Source: Halorubrum salinarum
GTDB lineage: Archaea; Halobacteriota; Halobacteria; Halobacteriales; Haloferacaceae
DNA length: 64,000 nt
Assembly (NCBI RefSeq): GCF_013267195.1
Contig: NZ_CP053942.1
Coordinates: 62,001-126,000, forward strand
Reading direction: 5' to 3'
Shown here: one piece after another, positions 16,768 through 28,984 of the stretch
How the letters are laid out: every line of letters begins with the position of its first letter
Position numbering within the stretch: the stretch's first letter is position 1
Made by a program: the position numbers and the translations under genes
The notes under the pieces: generated by a model
The model's input: the letters and a program-made list of their open reading frames with translations, nothing else
Told to the model about the DNA's origin: nothing
Database searches by the model: none

Positions 16768-17457
16768 GTGTCTGAAATTACAAAACAGGATATAACGGTC
16801 TGTATCGATGCGTATCCCGACCAGGATACTGATGTGTTTCGTATCGGTGCCGCAGACGACATCCTCCGGCTACTCGCCGACGCTCACGAGACGGAGTTTA
16901 CGATTCCTGAACTTGTCGACGCCACAGGTGTCACCCGCTCAACGGTCTGGCGAGCTGTGAACCTGCTCGACAGTATCGGGGCCATCCGAATTCGAGAGAC
17001 GCCACAACGAAACCACATCGCGATCGACCCCAACCGCCTCCAGAAGGACGATCCGGTACTTGCTATTCCGCAGTCGGAGTTCCATACACCGATTCGGGCA
17101 TTCGTTACCCGCGTAGAAGCTACGCTCACTAACGCCGACAACATCGACAACCTCCTCGGTATCGTTATTTTCGGGAGTGTCGCTCGGGGGGAGGCTGACC
17201 GGCAAAGTGACATCGATTGTTTTGTCGTCGTCGATGGCGACCGGACGACAGCTCGCCGACAGGTCACCGACGTCGTCGCAGAACTCCAATCAGAGCGCTT
17301 CGACGGTGACCGATTCGCGTTCGAACCGTATGTTGAATCCGCCGAGAGCGCACGGAGAGTCGGGTCAAAACTCCATAACATCTTCGCGGAGGGCATTACA
17401 GTGTATGGGAGCGACCAGCTTGACTCACTCCGAAAAGAGGTCATCGCCAATGAGTAG
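16768..17457 (+). CDS. winged-helix + nucleotidyltransferase (MNT) antitoxin, copy 1
   Basis: A 229-residue protein. The N-terminal helix-turn-helix (FTIPELVDATGVTRSTVWRAVNLLDSIGAIRI) is joined to a minimal nucleotidyltransferase with FGSVARGEADRQSDIDCFVVVD, the G-S-x-A-R-G...D-x-D active site. Family knowledge: MNT antitoxins neutralise HEPN RNase toxins, in studied cases by adding AMP units to a toxin tyrosine. The gene overlaps the HEPN gene by 8 bp, the usual co-translated order. GTG start. Fusion to a DNA-binding domain suggests it also represses its operon. Confidence 0.85.
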   Translation: MSEITKQDITVCIDAYPDQDTDVFRIGAADDILRLLADAHETEFTIPELVDATGVTRSTVWRAVNLLDSIGAIRIRETPQRNHIAIDPNRLQKDDPVLAIPQSEFHTPIRAFVTRVEATLTNADNIDNLLGIVIFGSVARGEADRQSDIDCFVVVDGDRTTARRQVTDVVAELQSERFDGDRFAFEPYVESAESARRVGSKLHNIFAEGITVYGSDQLDSLRKEVIANE

Positions 17458-17947
17458 TACGCGAATCGACCAGCTCATCGACAACGTACAAGCCGCGTTC
17501 GACCGCCGCCCAACAGATATCGAAGCTGGGCTTGATGTCGAGGATGCCGCTCTCCTCCAGCTGCGGAAGGCCTGTCGCTTGCTGGCCGGCGCCGAGGCAC
17601 TACAGGATGCCAGCTACTACACGCTCGTCATCGAAGCATCGTTCGTGGCTATCGAACGGACCGTGGAATTCCGGCTTCTCGAACGAGGCACGATACAGCC
17701 GGATTATCTCCCTGGCACACATCCTGGTGTCTACCGCGAGGCGGCAGCAGTTGGTGTGTTCGACGAATCGATAGCGGCCTTTCTCGCTGATCTCTGGCGC
17801 GACCACCGAGCAAAAACATACTAGCAGGATGGGCTCGCCTCAGCAGCGCGTACAGACGCGATGTACGAACTCGCCACCGAGATTCATGCGTACGTTATTG
17901 GGCGATCCCGACAGGGACACGAGTGTATCTGCGGGGAACCAAGGTAG
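17450..17947 (+). pseudogene. HEPN toxin, copy 1, interrupted by an in-frame TAG
   Basis: The frame from ATG 17450 (MSSTRIDQLIDNVQAAF) reads 124 residues to a TAG at 17822-17824. Beyond the stop the same frame continues with strong similarity to the intact copy at 28 kb: ARTDAMYELATEIHAYV versus KEQAEAMYRLADDIHRHL, then both share HECIC. The full gene would be 165 residues. The stop replaces the second Tyr of the K-T-Y-Y motif found in the intact copy. Thus a single nonsense change removes the last quarter. The shortened 124-residue protein could still be made. Confidence 0.75.
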
Positions 17948-19592: not shown

Positions 19593-21062
19593 CTACGTCT
19601 GGTTTCGGATCTGCGCTTTGACCACGGAGGTAACCTCCTCTTCAGAAATCGCTTCAATACGCGAGTCTTCACGGAGTGTCTCGAGAATTGTCCCTGGACT
19701 TTCGCCAAACTGGAACTCGAGGAACATCCCCGAGCTGGGCCCGTGGCTCCGTCGCTCGAAGTCGACCAGAGAGTACGTCGTGAGTTCTTTCATCTTATTC
19801 ACGTACGTTTCCTGGTGGTACTGATCCGTGTCAATAGCATCAGTCAGATATTGATACACACGATAGCCGGTCGTACTCCTGGCGCTCCCACCGTCAGTTT
19901 GGGACGCAACCGCTGCGGTTGCGTACAGACAGAGCTTCTTTTGTGTGCTGATACCACGAACGACCTCTAACACCCGATTCTTCTCGACTTTCTCCTGTGC
20001 GGTACGGACGTGTTTTTCGCTAACGCGGTTGTCGCCTTCACGCTCAGCCAGCTCGCCGGCAACCCGCATGAGATCGATCGCCTTCCTCGCGTCACCATGC
20101 GTCTGTGCTGCGAACGCCGCTGCGAGTGGAATCACATCATCGTCGACGACGTCGTCATGGAACGCATCCTGACGCCGTCGGAGGATTGCTTGGAGTTGGT
20201 TTGCGTCGTAGTCGTCGAAATGGACGTCCTCTGGGGTGAACGAACTGACAGCGCGACTCCCAACGGATTCCATCATCTTCGTGTCGTTTGAAATAGCAAC
20301 GACGGAGATGTACGCGTCCAGTTCGTCGTTTGCCCCTGCCCGGGAGAGCTGATACAGGAGCCGTGAAAACGCAGGTTCTTGTTTGTCTCGCCGGCCAACG
20401 AGCATGTCCAGTTCGTCGAGGACAAACACAACAGAGTCGAAATGCTCGTTGACGATCCGGTAGAGCTCATCCCACTTCTCTTTCGTTGCCACGCCGTGTT
20501 TTGGCACCTCAACAGGGACTCCTGCCGCATCAGCAGCCTGCTGAACGAGTTCATACACGGCGATACCAAGCGTGTCTAGATCCTGGCAGTTCACTTCAAC
20601 AGTGCCAAACCGGATGTCACGGCTCTCACAGATACGGCTGATATTATGACAAACTGCCTTCGTAATTAGCGATTTCCCAGTTCCAGACGGGCCGTAGAGG
20701 AACAGGTTTGGCGGTCGGTTATCGCCGAGGGCAACCCGAAGCATCTTGGTGACTTCTTGGAGCTGCTCATCACGGCCCACGATGCGATCTTCTTCAACAA
20801 CGTAATTCGGATCGAGTAGCTCTCGGTCCCGAATTAGCCCCTCCTGATCGTCAAACTCGAGGAGCATATCCTCGATTGACTGTGATGGCCCCTCGGAATC
20901 TGCCCCTTCGTCGGGCTGTGAGTCACCGTTAGTGACATGAGACGATGACGCCTGTCGCGATGACTCCGGCTGCGACGCACTCGACAGCTCAGCCTGAGCC
21001 GTCACCTCGTCCTCCGACGGTCCCGGATTCTCTGCGGGATCATCGGAGTCGTCAGTACCCAT
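19593..21062 (-). CDS. orc1: Orc1/Cdc6 replication initiator
   Basis: A 489-residue AAA+ ATPase. An acidic, disordered N-terminus of about 75 residues precedes GRDEQLQEVTKMLRVAL. Walker A is GPSGTGKS (about 124-131), Walker B VFVLDELDML (about 212-221), sensor-1 VVAISND, and a C-terminal winged helix follows (LCLYATAAVASQTDG...RVYQYLTDAI). Family knowledge: it binds ORB elements as ATP-bound initiator and loads MCM. The gene sits inside its own box array, so autoregulation and origin firing are likely linked. Intact, unlike the fragment at 31 kb. Confidence 0.93.
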   Translation of the reverse strand: MGTDDSDDPAENPGPSEDEVTAQAELSSASQPESSRQASSSHVTNGDSQPDEGADSEGPSQSIEDMLLEFDDQEGLIRDRELLDPNYVVEEDRIVGRDEQLQEVTKMLRVALGDNRPPNLFLYGPSGTGKSLITKAVCHNISRICESRDIRFGTVEVNCQDLDTLGIAVYELVQQAADAAGVPVEVPKHGVATKEKWDELYRIVNEHFDSVVFVLDELDMLVGRRDKQEPAFSRLLYQLSRAGANDELDAYISVVAISNDTKMMESVGSRAVSSFTPEDVHFDDYDANQLQAILRRRQDAFHDDVVDDDVIPLAAAFAAQTHGDARKAIDLMRVAGELAEREGDNRVSEKHVRTAQEKVEKNRVLEVVRGISTQKKLCLYATAAVASQTDGGSARSTTGYRVYQYLTDAIDTDQYHQETYVNKMKELTTYSLVDFERRSHGPSSGMFLEFQFGESPGTILETLREDSRIEAISEEEVTSVVKAQIRNQT

Positions 21063-21852: not shown

Positions 21853-21894
21853 TTAACCAACAAATCCATGCTAGATGGCTCCCGTGTTGGTTAA
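21853..21894. repeat. inverted repeat R3
   Basis: Arms at 21853-21862 and 21885-21894, spacer 22 bp. The right arm overlaps the TAA stop codon of the polymerase gene, so this copy is not a promoter of that gene. It may act on the origin side or as a transcript end. Confidence 0.85.
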
Positions 21895-24053
21895 CTGTTC
21901 CTTGTGGCGAACGCCATCAACTCTGGCACCCGCGTCTCCACGAGTTCTCGCTGAATCTCCGTCCGGTCCCAGCCAAGCGGTGACAGCACACTCTCGACAG
22001 CTCTGACGAGTTGTGTCTCGTAATAGGACGCATCGTACGACTCAATCTCTTCGTGAGCCAACGCGACCCGTTCTCGCGATGTTTTCTCGTCGTCGACGAC
22101 GACGTACTCGATGTCTTGCCCTGGATGGACGGCGAGGTTCTGCTCTTGAGCCCGCTTCAACGCGGCTACATTCTGTGTGTTCTGTGTATATCCCTCCAGC
22201 GGCTTGGAGACACGATTCCGTTCGACGAGCTGCTTGACCGGCACCGTTCCAGTGTGAAGGCGCTTGATTGCGTCCTGGAGACAGTCAAGTACAGCGTCTG
22301 GAGATCGAGTCGCGTCGAGTCGGTCGAGACAATCCTGCTGGACGTCCTCGATGAACGGTGGGGTTGAGCGCTGTCGGGCTTCGATACCCCGTATCTTGAA
22401 CTCGTCGTCCCCCGCGACCGTCCCGAAGTACTTCGTCAACGCGCCGGCGTCACTCTCGCGCTGCGGGACGAACGCCACCCAGTCGTAGTGGGCTTCGTGT
22501 TCGAGTCGGATCTCGACCTCTTCGGTAATCTCCGTCGCGAGTGTCTTGAGATCTTTGCGGTCCTCGTCGTCGACGTCGGGGTCCGGCGTCACCCAGATGG
22601 AGTCGACGATGCCATGAATGACCCGCCACCCGCCAGCTTCAAGTCGCTGTTTCGCCGTCAGGAGAATCTCGCGCGCATACGCGTTAATTGCCTCGTGACA
22701 CTCGATACGTCCGAACTTGGCGTTGCTGAACCCCTGATATCCAAAGCAGGCGACGAGGATCCACTTCAGCGCGCCTGACCGCCCTTCGAGTTCCGTCAGT
22801 CTGTCCTCGTTGGGGTCATCCCGAGCCTTCTCGTGACGGATGGCCGTCTTGATCTCGTCGCGCGCGTCGATGATCGGCTGGAGGACGTCGACGAGGTAGC
22901 CTTGGTCGTCACAAATTGAGTACCCGAGGCCGGGGACATCGTCGCGGTCGCTGTGACAATCACACCGGATGACGTCGGGCGAGACGTTCCGCGTACAGAT
23001 GATGTTCGGATACAACGAGGAGAAGTCGAGTTCGTGGACATTCTCGTGGAGGCCGACCTCGGGCGCGAAGATGAAGCCGCCACGGTCGGCGTCATGAAGC
23101 GTCCCCGTCGGCTTGAAGAACTCATGCCGCCAGGAGTTCCACGGGACGAGAACACCGCGGTCGTGGGCCTCACAGATCTGGATTGCCGTGAGGACGTTCC
23201 CAATTGATGCCCACGCGAGTTCCTGGACGGGCTTTTTCGAGCGCGATACAAGGTCGAGGACACCGTCGAGGTTTGTTTCCCCGTAGAAGAACGTGTTCGA
23301 CTCGTCGATGATCGCCCGCCCGGGCACGTTGTACCGCGCCGGAGAGTGGCCGACGCGACCGTAGCTCGAGTACGTTGAGTGACTCGCGAGCTGCTGGTAG
23401 TCGACATCCGGCCACCGGCTCAGCGAGAAGTCGTCGACGCCGGCGTTCGTCGCCATCTCGTGTAGCGTCGGGATGATCTCGCTCGTCGAGCAGACGAGGA
23501 TGTCTGGATCATGTGTTTCGATCGCCGCTTGGACGGTGGTGAGGATGTCACCTGCTGACCCGGTAACAGTCTCGCCGGCAATCGTGAGCTCGCTGTACGT
23601 GTCTTGGCCTGTCTCGGTCACTGGAATATCGAGCCGGAGCATCGACAGTTCCGCCGCCGGCGTTGGATCGCGATTCGTCTCCAGACAGTAGCGAAACTCC
23701 CGTGAGAAATCGACGTTGAAGCAGGCGAGATCGCCAACGGGGTACGCTATCAGTTGGTGTGCCTGTCGCGCAAGCGGTGTGACGCGGTCGACGTGGTCGA
23801 CATCGACAGCTAGAGCGGACTCGCCGTCACGACGAAATCCGGGCCGCCGGGATACGATCTCGGTCGCGACGACATCAGGATGGCGTTCGTATAGTGAATG
23901 AAGTTGTGTAAGATCGATGTCGGTGTCAGGGTCACGTGATGCGACGTAGAAACGGGGCGTGTAGTCGTCGTGTTCGGTCGCGGTCGCGCCGTCGTTGGTC
24001 GCCTCCCACTCGAGGACGCGACCATCGTCAAGGAAATCGATTGTGAACGGCAT
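21891..24053 (-). CDS. family-B DNA polymerase with degenerate exonuclease domain
   Basis: A 720-residue polymerase, shorter than cellular PolB (about 780-1000 plus). Polymerase motif A is intact (LDFSSLYPNI, about 342-351). Motif B is divergent (K430-W-I-L-V-A-C-F-G-Y instead of K-x3-N-S-x-Y-G). Motif C is GIVDSI (about 481-486) and keeps the second, essential Asp but not the first. GIEARQRSTPPFIEDVQ matches the thumb-proximal R-D region. In the exonuclease half the first motif reads RLDIPVTETG rather than D-x-E, and motifs II and III are not found. So synthesis is probably retained while proofreading is lost. It follows the origin and reads towards it. Confidence 0.85.
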   Translation of the reverse strand: MPFTIDFLDDGRVLEWEATNDGATATEHDDYTPRFYVASRDPDTDIDLTQLHSLYERHPDVVATEIVSRRPGFRRDGESALAVDVDHVDRVTPLARQAHQLIAYPVGDLACFNVDFSREFRYCLETNRDPTPAAELSMLRLDIPVTETGQDTYSELTIAGETVTGSAGDILTTVQAAIETHDPDILVCSTSEIIPTLHEMATNAGVDDFSLSRWPDVDYQQLASHSTYSSYGRVGHSPARYNVPGRAIIDESNTFFYGETNLDGVLDLVSRSKKPVQELAWASIGNVLTAIQICEAHDRGVLVPWNSWRHEFFKPTGTLHDADRGGFIFAPEVGLHENVHELDFSSLYPNIICTRNVSPDVIRCDCHSDRDDVPGLGYSICDDQGYLVDVLQPIIDARDEIKTAIRHEKARDDPNEDRLTELEGRSGALKWILVACFGYQGFSNAKFGRIECHEAINAYAREILLTAKQRLEAGGWRVIHGIVDSIWVTPDPDVDDEDRKDLKTLATEITEEVEIRLEHEAHYDWVAFVPQRESDAGALTKYFGTVAGDDEFKIRGIEARQRSTPPFIEDVQQDCLDRLDATRSPDAVLDCLQDAIKRLHTGTVPVKQLVERNRVSKPLEGYTQNTQNVAALKRAQEQNLAVHPGQDIEYVVVDDEKTSRERVALAHEEIESYDASYYETQLVRAVESVLSPLGWDRTEIQRELVETRVPELMAFATRNS

Positions 24054-24370
24054 TTTCGTAAGTCACCCACCTTCCCGTCTTTACACCGGAGTCTCGCATA
24101 ATCGCCGGCGTGTCTGTTCCGGATTTCAGGGAATGGAGATCGCCTAGACAGAAACAGCGGACTCTCGCGGATTCGCTCTGTTAACGCCACTTCCAGAATT
24201 GTTTCCGAGTTTGTTAGCTGAACCTCCGGTAGCGCGTTAACCAACAGAACGGCCGTTTCACAGATGGTTGTTGGTTAAGCCTGCTATGGACAGTCCTCCA
24301 TATCTTGAATTCGGTGAACAATATACTACCCCACAGATTATTATACCGCTCTCTCGTTGGTTGGCACATA
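24054..24370. other. divergent intergenic region with promoters
   Basis: 317 bp between the polymerase (leftward) and winged-helix gene (rightward). It holds inverted repeat R4 in the middle and the AT-rich AATATACTACC...ATTATTATACC (24316-24345), a probable TATA box for the rightward gene. Confidence 0.5.
24237..24278. repeat. inverted repeat R4
   Basis: Arms 24237-24246 and 24269-24278, spacer 22 bp. It lies 184 bp from the polymerase start and 93 bp from the winged-helix start. Confidence 0.85.
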
Positions 24371-24982
24371 ATGTCCGAAGAGCCGTCCCCGCCCCACCGA
24401 CTGAGCCCGGATGGCGGTACCGAACACCGTGACGTGAACGACGTCGTCGAAGAGGAATGGATCGAGGAGACGACGCCGTTTGAACGAGTGTACGAAGTCA
24501 TCTCTCGTGTGTACGATCCGCTGTCTGTAGCACAGATCGCCGAGCGTGCCCGCGTCTCACCGACCACGGCGCGAAAGCACCTGCGAACGCTCGAGAGCGC
24601 TGGTGAGGTAACGACGTCACAGGACGGTCAGACGACACACTACCGACGGTCGGAAACCGCTATCGTCACCGAACACGCCCAGTCGCTCCTCGCGGAACGG
24701 ACGCCCGAAGAGATCGCGTCCGGCATCGCCGATATGAAGTCGCAGATCCAGGCGTGGCGCGAGGAATACGGTGTTGATTCACCCGAGGAATTCGCCCGAG
24801 AACTGGATATCGGGGACGCCGACAGCGATCATGGTGCGCTCCTCACAGAATGGCAAACGACGCGACGCAACCTCGCACTCGCACAGGCAACACTCGCGAT
24901 CGGTGAGGTGAGTCAGACTGGTCACCTCACTGGCACGGATACGGACGACGATGGTAACGGCGATACATCCATCGTCGTATGA
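24371..24982 (+). CDS. winged-helix regulator, first gene of a two-gene unit
   Basis: A 203-residue protein: an acidic head, then a winged helix PLSVAQIAERARVSPTTARKHLRTLESAGEVTTSQDGQTTHYRRS, then a helical tail EEIASGIADMKSQIQAWREEYGVDSPEEFARELD. The tail matches a haloarchaeal family of plasmid-linked regulators. Its stop codon overlaps the next start by 4 bp (ATGA), indicating translational coupling and a shared function, possibly antitoxin-like. Start chosen at ATG 24371, as the upstream extension crosses the promoter. Confidence 0.75.
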   Translation: MSEEPSPPHRLSPDGGTEHRDVNDVVEEEWIEETTPFERVYEVISRVYDPLSVAQIAERARVSPTTARKHLRTLESAGEVTTSQDGQTTHYRRSETAIVTEHAQSLLAERTPEEIASGIADMKSQIQAWREEYGVDSPEEFARELDIGDADSDHGALLTEWQTTRRNLALAQATLAIGEVSQTGHLTGTDTDDDGNGDTSIVV

Positions 24983-25461
24983 GTGACGACGGAGATCCCC
25001 CTCACCATATTCAGCCAGACGAACAGTCTGAGGTGTTTGGTCCTATCGACGCCGGGGCGCTACGGGAAATCCGAGACCTGATTGTGGACCTCGAGCCGCT
25101 GGTCCAGACCGCGTCATTGGACGATCCGCTGAATCCCCAGACACTTTCGGCTGAATTATCCGACGGCGTCGGAGCGGCGTCAACCGCCCGGATAGACGTC
25201 CGGTGGAGTCTCACCGGGAACTACGCCGCACACTACACAGATGATCGAGACCGAAATTTTCGGTTTGACTGTCACCCGAAACCCGACGCGCCGCGACGAC
25301 ACTTCCATTCACCCCCCGATGCTCTGAGCCGTCCTGTCGACCCATCTTGTATTGCCGTGTCTGAAACAAGTCTTGTGACGCGAGCGATTCTCCAACGGTG
25401 GCGATACGTCTATACGAATGGAACATTCGATGGGATCAACGACGCAGAAAATCCACCGTAA
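24979..25461 (+). CDS. TumE-like hypothetical protein
   Basis: A 160-residue protein. The middle, ARIDVRWSLTGNYAAHYTDD, then FRFDCHPKPDAPRRHFHSPPDAL, resembles the strand-rich core with paired histidines of TumE-type (DUF6516-like) toxins found next to DNA-binding antitoxins in haloarchaea. The partner here is the coupled winged-helix gene. The similarity is weak to moderate, so the toxin role is inference. Confidence 0.5.
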   Translation: MSDDGDPPHHIQPDEQSEVFGPIDAGALREIRDLIVDLEPLVQTASLDDPLNPQTLSAELSDGVGAASTARIDVRWSLTGNYAAHYTDDRDRNFRFDCHPKPDAPRRHFHSPPDALSRPVDPSCIAVSETSLVTRAILQRWRYVYTNGTFDGINDAENPP

Positions 25462-25507
25462 TATCTTCCTCACCGTTCACGACAAGGCGGACGCCACGTT
25501 AATCGAG

Positions 25508-26164
25508 TCACTGGCTATCCATCACCGGATCGAGCGATTTCATCGAAAAGTCTGATTTCGAGCAGTACCGTTCCGCAACGTCCATCAGCGCTCGTGTACG
25601 CCGAATATCGGCGACGTTGTGGAGTACGACCGCTTCGAAATCACCAGTCTCCCACGCGTCGACGGCCTCGCTACTTTCCCCAAATGGATCGACTGTGCCG
25701 TGGCCGGAAGCCACGAGCTCACCATACACTCCAGTGAGGCTGTTCTCGCTCGTATTGAACCGTGAGGAGAAGACCTCCATCACGTCGATGTACGGTAGCT
25801 CGGCGAACGGCCACTCGCGTTCGTGATGGCTTAACCGCGTTCGAAGGAATGGCAGATCGAATCCGCCTTTCCAGGTTTCCCCATTATACGCTACGAGTTT
25901 GACATCTCGCTGTGCGATCGTGGTATCGACGAACGTCTTGACGGCGTCCAACAGGACGCTCTCATCGTCATGAACAGAGAGCGTCACTGGCGTGGTGAGA
26001 TGGTCGTTCACGCGTTCTTCGATATCTGAGGCACACGTACTCCCGTCTGTATTGAGGAACACTCGCGAGCCGATTTCGGCGTCAAAGCCGACGACGGTCA
26101 ACTGGTCAGTCGTCGAAAACCCTGTCGTCTCGATGTCGAATGCGATCGTCGCGAGTGTACTCAT
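25508..26164 (-). CDS. stand-alone 3'-5' exonuclease (DnaQ/RNase H fold)
   Basis: A 218-residue nuclease. Exo I is AFDIETTGF (D10, E12), Exo II is in VAYNGETWKGGFDLPFLRTR, and Exo III is VLHNVADIRRTRALMD. All catalytic acids of a DEDD exonuclease are present. The motifs are closest to the proofreading domain of B-family polymerases. It is the last gene of a three-gene leftward operon, overlapping the preceding small gene by 4 bp. Inference: it supplies the proofreading that the nearby polymerase lacks. Confidence 0.85.
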   Translation of the reverse strand: MSTLATIAFDIETTGFSTTDQLTVVGFDAEIGSRVFLNTDGSTCASDIEERVNDHLTTPVTLSVHDDESVLLDAVKTFVDTTIAQRDVKLVAYNGETWKGGFDLPFLRTRLSHHEREWPFAELPYIDVMEVFSSRFNTSENSLTGVYGELVASGHGTVDPFGESSEAVDAWETGDFEAVVLHNVADIRRTRALMDVAERYCSKSDFSMKSLDPVMDSQ

Positions 26165-26478
26165 TGGGGTTCCTCGCTGGTTTCCCCATCGGGTCCTTGC
26201 GCATCGGTGCTCTGTTCGTTGAGCCGGTGTTCAAGCGCTTCGAGGCGTTCCCCATGGTCTTCCAATGTGGCCTCCTGTTCGAGATCGATACTGAACAGCG
26301 CCGGCACCAGTGGATTCTGATGGTTCAACAGCCCGCTCGCGTCGGCGTGTTCGCGAGCGTACTCGAACAGCCGGTCGAAGCGTGGTTGGTCGTGACGACG
26401 GAGTGCCCGACGGAACTCCGCCCAGCGCTCTTCGATGGCCCGCAGCGCATCCCGATATGTCGGGTTTGTGCGTCCCAT
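26161..26478 (-). CDS. small hypothetical protein between RadA-like and exonuclease genes
   Basis: A 105-residue, mostly helical protein: TNPTYRDALRAIEERWAEFRRALRRHDQPRFDRLFEYAREHADASGLLNHQNPLVPALFSIDLEQE, then a heptad-like DHGERLEALEHRLNEQ. I do not recognise a named family. Position and the ATGA overlap with the exonuclease suggest a partner or clamp-like accessory factor. The start lies 2 bp after the stop of the RadA-like gene, so the three genes form one operon. Confidence 0.72.
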   Translation of the reverse strand: MGRTNPTYRDALRAIEERWAEFRRALRRHDQPRFDRLFEYAREHADASGLLNHQNPLVPALFSIDLEQEATLEDHGERLEALEHRLNEQSTDAQGPDGETSEEPQ

Positions 26479-26480
26479 TG

Positions 26481-27419
26481 TTAGCGCCCCCTAGGTGCTG
26501 TCCACGCATCGAGGAGCGGACTTGTGGTGAGCGATGTCGCCTCGCCGTCAGCGGTCACGCCTGTTCCGACACCTGGCGGACTCGACGTCGACGACGGGAG
26601 TGTCGCGGGTTCGAGGCCAACCTGTGTCGCCCGCGTAGCGAGCAGCTGTCGCCAGTAGGCGAACGTGGTCTGGTAGTACGCACCGTCATCAACGGGATAG
26701 ACGAGTGTCTCGAACTCGTCACCGACGAGTCGCGGCCCCATCCGGGTTTGCTCACACTCAAGATGGTGATTGGCGGCCGTCGCGACCGGTACTGTGAACT
26801 CGTCGATCGTACTCCGAGTAACGAGTACCGGGACGTCGTAGCTGTCGGCGTACGTCGCTAGTCGAGCGAGGGTTCTCGCTTGGAGTGTTTCCGCGTGCTG
26901 TTCCCTGAGTGTGTCATCGCTGCGATACTGGGCGTCGACAGCCGGTGCGACGATGAGCGACGGGGTGTGTGGAGACGAGTTTTCGTTTTGTACCGTTGAC
27001 TGTCGACCGGATGTGTCGGTGACAGCGGTCGATTTCTGGATGCTCTGGTTTACTGTCGTCGGGAGATTGTCGACAGCGCCGTAGTGCTGGTACGCGGTGA
27101 ATCCACGTGCGACGTGGATCCGGTCGAGCAACCGCTGGCTCGGTGTGATCTGAGCCAGCGTCGTCGTCGTCGCGTGGCCGTTCGCGTCAACCCAGAAGGC
27201 GGGCCCATCGTGTACCAGGAGATGGTCCAGCACGAGCGACTGGAGGATTGGGACGCCTCGGCCGTCGTCAACGTCGAGCAACGTGACGCCGTCGTCGAGT
27301 GACGGTAGGAGCATCTCTTCTGTGGCTGGATCGGCTTGATCTGCCAAGGTCCGATTGCGGTCAGCCCCCCGTGTCGGCTTGTCGGCCGCCATTCGGTTCG
27401 ATGGTGGGTGATCTCCCAT
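26481..27419 (-). CDS. RadA/RecA-like protein lacking a Walker A lysine
   Basis: A 312-residue protein. The pattern LLDRIHVARGFTAYQHY matches RadA (LLD.IYVARA), and SLIVAPAVDAQYR...LARLATYADSYDVPVLVTRS matches the RadA Walker B region and following strand. Where RadA has G-x4-G-K-T, this protein reads DVDDGRGVPILQS, so ATP binding by the usual loop is unlikely. The N-terminus is short and there is no helix-hairpin-helix domain. First gene of the operon with the small protein and exonuclease. Possible role: structural or regulatory relative of RadA in replication or repair. Confidence 0.7.
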   Translation of the reverse strand: MGDHPPSNRMAADKPTRGADRNRTLADQADPATEEMLLPSLDDGVTLLDVDDGRGVPILQSLVLDHLLVHDGPAFWVDANGHATTTTLAQITPSQRLLDRIHVARGFTAYQHYGAVDNLPTTVNQSIQKSTAVTDTSGRQSTVQNENSSPHTPSLIVAPAVDAQYRSDDTLREQHAETLQARTLARLATYADSYDVPVLVTRSTIDEFTVPVATAANHHLECEQTRMGPRLVGDEFETLVYPVDDGAYYQTTFAYWRQLLATRATQVGLEPATLPSSTSSPPGVGTGVTADGEATSLTTSPLLDAWTAPRGR

Positions 27420-27837: not shown

Positions 27838-28326
27838 TCAGGCTCGACAGATACACTCGTGTGATACCCGTGTCATATCGATGAGGTGGCGGTGGATATC
27901 GTCGGCAAGCCGGTACATTGCCTCTGCCTGTTCCTTCGTTGCGATACCGAGTCTGTAATAGGTCTTCGTTCGGTTTCGGTTCCACAGCTCGGCAAGCTCC
28001 TCTCCGAACGCGTCGTCGTAGAGGCCTATCTCGGCACCACGTTGGTAGAGTCGGCGGTGGCTACTGATGACCTCCGCCGCGGACATTGCCCCATCGTGGA
28101 TCAATCGGAACTGGATAGTGCGCTCGATGGCGACGAACGCCGACTCGATCACGACCGTGTAGTACCCTTGGTCGAGGAGATTTGATCCCACCTCCAGCAG
28201 CCGACAGGCACGGCGAAGTTGGACCAACTCCGCGTCGTCGACATCTAATCCCTCCTCGATCGTTCCGGGACTGCCCTCGAAGGTCCGCTCGGCTTCTCCC
28301 AACTGGTCTCGGATATCGTCATTCAT
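27838..28326 (-). CDS. HEPN toxin, copy 2 (intact)
   Basis: A 162-residue all-helical HEPN-type protein from ATG 28326 (an ATG two codons upstream is possible). Seen: LQLRRACRLLEVGSN-like core (residues ELVQLRRACRLLE), YYTVVIESAFVAIERTIQFRLI, and ELWNRNRTKTYYRLG. Family knowledge: HEPN toxins are RNases with an R-x4-6-H motif; here the Arg-rich R-N-R-T-K-T-Y-Y stands at that place without the His. Two tyrosines are possible AMP acceptors for the partner MNT. The start overlaps the antitoxin's 3' end. Confidence 0.8.
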   Translation of the reverse strand: MNDDIRDQLGEAERTFEGSPGTIEEGLDVDDAELVQLRRACRLLEVGSNLLDQGYYTVVIESAFVAIERTIQFRLIHDGAMSAAEVISSHRRLYQRGAEIGLYDDAFGEELAELWNRNRTKTYYRLGIATKEQAEAMYRLADDIHRHLIDMTRVSHECICRA

Positions 28327-28984
28327 CGGCATACACCTCGGTTCGGAGTTCGGAGAGTTGGTCGGAACTGACCAACGTGATCCCGCCGTCGAACTGAGGG
28401 CGAAGTTGATCACCGATTCGTTGGACGCTGTCCGTCGATTCGACAAGCGGCTGGAACGTGTACCGATTCCCTTCGAACCGTTGGTCTTCGAGATCGCTAA
28501 CAACCGTCTGGACAGTCCGGCGAGCTGCCGTTTGGTCTTTGTCGACGATCACCAATAGGTCGATGTCGCTGGCCCTATCTGCCTCTCCCCGAGCGACGCT
28601 TCCGAACAGGACGACCCCGACTAATCCATCCAACTCGTCCTGAAGTCGTTGTAGAAATGCCTGAACTGGTTGGTGGAACTCGCTCTGCGGGATCGAGAGA
28701 ATTGGATCTGGTTTTGTGAGCCGTTCACGGTTAATCTGGACCTGCTGAGTCCGCCCATCTGGTGCGATCTCGATGACATCAAGCTCGGAAAGCAATGTCA
28801 CCGCCTTTGAGATCGTTCCCTTATTTGCCCCTGTGAGGCTTGCGAGTTCGCTCATCGAGTATGTCGCATACGGCTGATCTATGAGAACGTTGAGAACGTC
28901 CTGCATTGCCTGGTATCGGAATACCCGATCCTCCGGAAACGGATACTGTAACTCTATTGAGATCGACTCTTTCCTATTAGGCAT
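28319..28984 (-). CDS. winged-helix + nucleotidyltransferase (MNT) antitoxin, copy 2
   Basis: A 221-residue homologue of the protein at 16.8 kb. The N-terminal winged helix is TYSMSELASLTGANKGTISKAVTLLSELDVIEI. The nucleotidyltransferase has LFGSVARGEADRASDIDLLVIVD, with both catalytic aspartates. Both copies share the linker DPILSIPQSEFHQPVQAF (DPVLAIPQSEFHTPIRAF in copy 1). It overlaps its HEPN partner. Two CCTATTAGG palindromes bracket the start codon, a likely autoregulatory operator. Confidence 0.87.
   Translation of the reverse strand: MPNRKESISIELQYPFPEDRVFRYQAMQDVLNVLIDQPYATYSMSELASLTGANKGTISKAVTLLSELDVIEIAPDGRTQQVQINRERLTKPDPILSIPQSEFHQPVQAFLQRLQDELDGLVGVVLFGSVARGEADRASDIDLLVIVDKDQTAARRTVQTVVSDLEDQRFEGNRYTFQPLVESTDSVQRIGDQLRPQFDGGITLVSSDQLSELRTEVYADE

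Follow-up and report, generated by a model that had tools for sequence, protein, structure and literature searches.

The archaeal PolB2 mutasome is known to have three parts, the B-family DNA polymerase PolB2, the small protein PPB2 (arCOG07300) and iRadA (Makarova 2014, PMC4104785; Timinskas 2025, PMC11791011; both cited throughout for selected passages). PolB2 was formerly believed to be inactive, but the Sulfolobus enzyme is an active extender polymerase (PMC8764526; PMC11791011), for which induction by DNA damage and translesion extension are established (PMC8764526; PMC7390963). Members of the B2 group have an unconserved Exo I motif, no Exo III motif and a single Asp in motif C (PMC7544198), and orc1/cdc6 genes are enriched near polB2 (PMC11791011). 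The locus analyzed here lies in a stretch of 64,000 nucleotides from Halorubrum salinarum (contig NZ_CP053942.1, positions 62,001 to 126,000), hereafter the window, on an extrachromosomal contig (plasmid) of a 3.34 Mb genome in three contigs. It encodes a B-family polymerase and a stand-alone DEDD exonuclease (exo). On balance, we favor the view that it is a plasmid-borne PolB2 translesion mutasome of iRadA, PPB2 and PolB2 that recruited an exonuclease into a position between PPB2 and PolB2; exo would be expressed jointly with its two upstream neighbors and brought to damage via PPB2 for 3'-end editing in trans, rather than serving a replicase.

The polymerase gene (21891–24053, minus strand, 720 amino acids) is an open gene that matched DNA_pol_B (E=1e-27) and, over its full length, the NCBIfam model NF004418 with 1418 bits (cut-off 692), whereas another, chromosomal B-family polymerase of the genome reached 63 bits; by this comparison of model scores the protein may group with PolB2 rather than with PolB3. 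Motif A (D343-FSSLYP) and motif C (HGIVDS, with I482-V483-D484-S485) were invariant in 18 homologues; the first Asp of motif C is replaced by Ile and the second, D484, is kept. A similar loss of the first Asp is found in Sulfolobus islandicus PolB2, in which motif C reads IID (PMC11791011). The Exo I motif of the window polymerase is LDIP and its Glu was lost in 17 of the 18 homologues, the Asp of Exo II is missing, and Y-x3-N stands in place of Exo III. A preliminary description of the locus, made from the sequence alone, had stated that motif A and the key Asp of motif C are kept and that the exonuclease D-x-E is lost, and both statements agree with these alignments. The replaced first and retained second motif C Asp, the unconserved Exo I and the lost Exo III are traits of the polymerase of PolB2 mutasomes, and its motifs and family matches identify the window polymerase as PolB2, which is the translesion type of archaea. 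A structure model of the protein was poor (predicted local distance difference test, pLDDT, 61.9), and a fold search on it was not used.

Two genes beside exo, which had gone unnoticed in the preliminary description, correspond to the partners of PolB2. The product of the first (26481–27419, minus strand, 312 amino acids) is assigned to iRadA, an inactivated RadA paralogue: its family profile matched RadA structures (E=1.3e-6) beginning just past the Walker A position, and the Lys-Thr of Walker A is absent (the sequence reads DGRGVP). The second gene (26161–26478, minus strand, 105 amino acids) encodes an arCOG07300-like small helical protein, assigned to PPB2 by its size, its position and its conservation beside PolB2 and iRadA. 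PPB2 also matched phrog_30126 (E=2e-23), the function of which is not known. A viral origin of exo and PPB2 was considered and rejected, with no match in 50,697 phage records (tblastn for PPB2) and one weak match in viral contigs. Both PPB2 and iRadA, without its ATPase site, are thus present at the locus, but PolB2 is split from PPB2 by exo and a pair of genes on the opposite strand. On the minus strand, exo is the third gene of an iRadA-PPB2-exo cassette; its start overlaps the stop codon of PPB2 by 4 bp (26161–26164), and it lies 1.45 kb upstream of PolB2.

The exo gene (25508–26164, minus strand, 218 amino acids) is likewise an open gene with a family match, to Pfam RNase_H_2 (E=1.7e-8). 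RNase_H_2 (PF13482) was matched by all 31 of 31 exo homologues and DNA_pol_B_exo1 by 16 of them. A sequence-based search against solved structures gave no match for exo, but a Foldseek search with an AlphaFold2 model (pLDDT 86.8) had its best PDB hits among polymerases of the B family (Pol epsilon, Tgo, KOD), with E between 7e-10 and 1e-8, indicating the fold of a PolB proofreading domain. The residues D10, E12, D103, H182 and D186 were invariant in 62 of 62 homologues. The Tyr of DEDDy exonucleases is not present and its place is taken by a His in Tyr spacing (H182-x3-D186, again in 62 of 62), so that the predicted general base is a hybrid, a His at DEDDy spacing. Of the earlier claim that a DEDD exonuclease of PolB type is encoded 1.5 kb away from the polymerase, the fold (in the predicted model), the four acidic residues and the distance were retained, with the correction that the exo III residue is this His. 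Ratios of nonsynonymous to synonymous substitution rates (dN/dS) of 0.08–0.21 against six near relatives indicate purifying selection, and from its conserved residues the active site of exo is intact. The idea that exo is a domain broken off this PolB2 found no support at the level of family matches: exo belongs to RNase_H_2, in a haloarchaeal family of its own with Cas-linked sisters, and PolB2 keeps a degenerate remnant of its exonuclease domain.

A polymerase without its own exonuclease next to an intact PolB-type exonuclease, with orc1/cdc6 genes nearby, could be taken for a plasmid replicase of two proteins, with PolB copying the DNA and exo supplying all proofreading in trans, as the preliminary description had proposed. 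A census of 292 haloarchaeal genomes detected PolB2 (E<=1e-30) in 197 and exo (E<=1e-5) in 83. The close exo clade (at least 63% identity) comprised 34 copies and the close PolB2 group (at least 67% identity) 95 genes. PolB2 was present in 31 of 31 genomes with a close-clade exo (hypergeometric P=2e-6), compared to 197 of 292 overall, so that the two genes are linked and, for the close clade, exo does not occur mostly without the polymerase, the outcome that would have refuted the preliminary description. This strict co-occurrence would also suit a replicase. However, exo was nearby in only 26 of the 95 close PolB2 genes and absent within 10 kb of the other 69 (approximately 73%), meaning that exo is an optional add-on that accompanies roughly one in four polymerases of this kind. 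The genome itself holds three PolB2 operons, in the window, on a second plasmid contig (C3) and on the chromosome, and the latter two are without exo. The C3 operon is a compact iRadA-PPB2-PolB2 series, the PolB2 of which is 85% identical to the window PolB2 and has a 4-bp overlap with the stop codon of PPB2, the very slot held by exo in the window; the chromosomal PolB2 is 50% identical.

In Halobacterium NRC-1, the locus on pNRC200 (L147, 6873–11253) has only a 79-residue remnant of exo ahead of polB2, along with an IS200/IS605 element; this model strain is therefore without intact exo there. The polB2 homologue on pNRC200 is dispensable (PMC1906834), and Haloferax polB2 can be deleted (PMC7776575). 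A two-protein replicase is very improbable, because PolB2 belongs with iRadA and PPB2 to damage tolerance, its homologues are dispensable or deletable, most copies lack exo, and three PolB2 operons, one of them chromosomal, occur in one genome. Nor was the claim that polymerase and proofreading are split into two genes supported; exo is coupled to PPB2 and not to the polymerase, and its sister clade sits in loci with Cas5/Cas7-like genes. Beside the exo-less operon on C3 (L008:1326–4227) we additionally observed a SRAP gene (E=7.6e-67) together with a gene for GmrSD-type restriction.

The coupling of exo to PPB2 is nearly invariant. In 32 of the 34 close copies, exo overlaps the end of PPB2, and the coupling is kept over 63–100% identity, while the distance between exo and PolB2 varies between 2 bp and 8 kb. 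An intact PolB2 follows downstream within 10 kb at 26 of 33 close-exo loci (at one of them, G066, only if the contig is circular), and two loci, L115 and L116, contain uninterrupted iRadA-PPB2-exo-PolB2 four-gene operons. The variable inserts between exo and PolB2, the pseudogene fragments and insertion sequence elements near some exo copies and the frequent gain or loss of exo would fit a passenger that was inserted as cargo at a recombination-prone site of the operon and has no functional tie to it. We consider this highly unlikely in view of the purifying selection on exo, its invariant active site and the 4-bp PPB2 coupling conserved over such a wide range of identity.

PPB2 itself differs with the presence of exo: between loci with and without exo, the PPB2 cores are 94% and the tails 35% identical, with a sharp difference in residues 85–101 and, at position 86, Leu in 27 of 29 loci with exo against Val in 17 of 18 loci without (p=1e-9). 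The best such columns in PolB2 and iRadA had p values of 1e-4 and 5e-4, respectively, and the best in shuffled data approximately 5e-4. The difference could reflect a docking tail or plain linkage with the neighboring gene; under docking and linkage alike, these patterns indicate that the companion with which exo moves is PPB2 and not PolB2. Synonymous divergence (dS) from the nearest relatives was 0.12–0.24 for iRadA-PPB2 and 0.42–0.53 for PolB2 (in most comparisons, 0.14–0.24 against 0.42–0.53), and the lower values of the former suggest separate recombination of the two blocks.

A tree of 82 exonucleases placed the window exo in a PPB2-linked clade (support 100/98) of 35 rows, of which 33 belong to iRadA-PPB2 loci. 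Its sister clade of 32 rows, with approximately 50% identity to the window exo, adjoins Cas7-like/Cas5-like genes in 31 rows (support 100/97), and a third clade has other neighbors. In most of the approximately 30 Cas-linked loci, the Cas5-like gene overlaps the start of the exonuclease by 1 or 4 bp. The H. salinarum chromosome carries a second exo, 53% identical over the search match (C1:2285316–2285954; L007:5302–5958, minus strand), as the last gene of a coupled Cas7-like/unknown/Cas5-like series, a layout shared by about 30 haloarchaeal loci. Such loci, including L007, probably represent HRAMP, a CRISPR-derived system of haloarchaea that comprises homologues of Cas5/Cas7 as well as nucleases (PMC8730458, citing Makarova 2019). 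The assignment draws on the order of the genes and on one weak match to Cmr3, and we call it no more than probable, because the Cas5/Cas7-like genes had no PDB profile match. Beside exo in the window there is no Cas5/Cas7-like gene.

Owing to this Cas-linked sister clade, the main rival to a mutasome function is that iRadA-PPB2-exo forms a nuclease module of its own, an effector in defense or inter-plasmid competition comparable to the Cas5/Cas7-like-exo loci, with the closeness of PolB2 being secondary. Translational coupling of the sister exonucleases to Cas5-like genes, the nearly invariant PPB2-exo coupling in the face of a variable distance to PolB2, cassettes without intact PolB2 nearby and the block-wise divergence, with lower dS in iRadA/PPB2 than in PolB2 in most comparisons, all speak for such a module. 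It is less easily reconciled with the retention of PolB2 in all 31 genomes, with the insert-free operons L115 and L116 and with the fact that other exo lineages join PolB2 operons too. Four diverged exonucleases on other branches of the tree, outside the main PolB2-linked clade, lie in or near PolB2 operons (L060–L063): that of L060 is inside an operon of the order iRadA-exo-PPB2-PolB2, and those of L061–L063 are near one. Taken together, we regard an independent effector as rather unlikely, although it deserves serious attention.

Recruitment of exo to the PolB2 mutasome would imply that exo is co-produced with iRadA and PPB2 and that PPB2 brings it to the damage site, perhaps by means of its C-terminal tail, which changes with the presence of exo. 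There, exo would remove mispaired or damaged 3' ends, probably by trimming 3' ends at blocked primers, and the trimmed end would let synthesis resume, either by PolB2, an extender that has no exonuclease of its own, or by the regular replicase. In the best reading of the comparative data, exo may be described as a facultative subunit or effector of the mutasome, with a closer tie to PPB2 than to PolB2. Several observations weigh against this proposal. The absence of exo from the 69 close PolB2 loci and the behavior of the exo label on the PolB2 tree, where 14 changes are needed and at least 9 are forced by well-supported branches, indicate that exo is not needed for PolB2 function. Several iRadA-PPB2-exo cassettes have a broken or distant PolB2 (L050, L055, L056, L059 and L119), the association with the PPB2 tail may be simple DNA linkage, and the coupling of the sister clade to a Cas5-like gene at other loci implies that the exo family can serve different partners. 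More tentatively, one may imagine a four-part mutasome in which a detachable exonuclease of PolB fold uses the PPB2 tail as its dock and edits on behalf of an extender whose own exonuclease is dead, the gain and loss of exo by plasmids tunes the damage-induced mutation rate, and the exo lineage is shared with a CRISPR derivative; this is conceivable but doubtful as a whole.

The opposite-strand pair inserted between exo and PolB2 in the window consists of a gene for a DUF7342 winged-helix protein (24305–24982, plus strand; PF24033, E=1.9e-32), divergent from PolB2 with a gap of 251 bp, and a partner gene for a protein of 160 amino acids (24979–25461, plus strand), which overlaps it by 4 bp and has a weak match, below the cut-off, to TumE-like PF20126 (E=0.0079). 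Both are variable inserts; the DUF7342 gene was found in many loci with exo and is missing from others. The DUF7342 protein is a possible regulator, and the two genes may act as a pair in regulation or in the manner of a toxin-antitoxin system. They recur together at other loci: between exo and PolB2, behind PolB2 in L060, and downstream of the probable HRAMP loci L078 and L135. That exo is a mere part of this insert was rejected, as exo occurs without the pair in L112–L118, L122 and L125. An Orc1/Cdc6 gene lies at 19593–21062 (minus strand; TIGR02928, 434 bits). MNT nucleotidyltransferase genes, each overlapped by a possible HEPN-type gene, flank the PolB2 locus on both sides (16768–17824, plus strand; 27838–28984, minus strand), and in Halorubrum sp. 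CBA1229 a nucleotidyltransferase gene precedes iRadA as well.

Compared to described PolB2 mutasomes (PMC4104785; PMC11791011), the window locus shares the three core genes, the degenerate motif C and exonuclease domain, the inactivated RadA and the orc1/cdc6 neighbors, and its relatives also share the SRAP neighbors, but it adds a PolB-fold exonuclease gene coupled to PPB2. Neither the examined passages of these two papers nor literature searches by gene name yielded a description of an exonuclease partner of PolB2. HRAMP (PMC8730458) resembles the locus in that the sister clade of the window exo forms the last coupled gene of probable HRAMP loci, one of them in the same genome, and differs in that the partner of the window exo is PPB2, with no Cas5/Cas7-like gene involved. 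Work on PolB2 mutasomes has hitherto dealt with them as error-prone extenders whose exonuclease domains are dead. The recurrent but optional presence of an intact PolB-type exonuclease in the operon offers a natural comparison, with and without exo, for studying editing during translesion synthesis in haloarchaea that are amenable to genetics, and the shared nuclease lineage ties the PolB2 mutasome to a CRISPR-derived system.

Among more distant systems, we know of no dedicated exonuclease subunit of eukaryotic Pol zeta, whose likeness to the window system lies in its working and not in descent. Pol zeta is also a B-family extender with an inactivated exonuclease and accessory subunits (PMC11791011). 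In Methanothermobacter, PolB function is likewise distributed over two polypeptides (PMC7776575), but there the PolB polypeptide itself is split, whereas the chain of the window polymerase is whole. The PolB2 mutasome, its orc1/cdc6 and SRAP neighbors and HRAMP were already known, and what the present locus contributes is exo as an added gene of the PolB2 mutasome.

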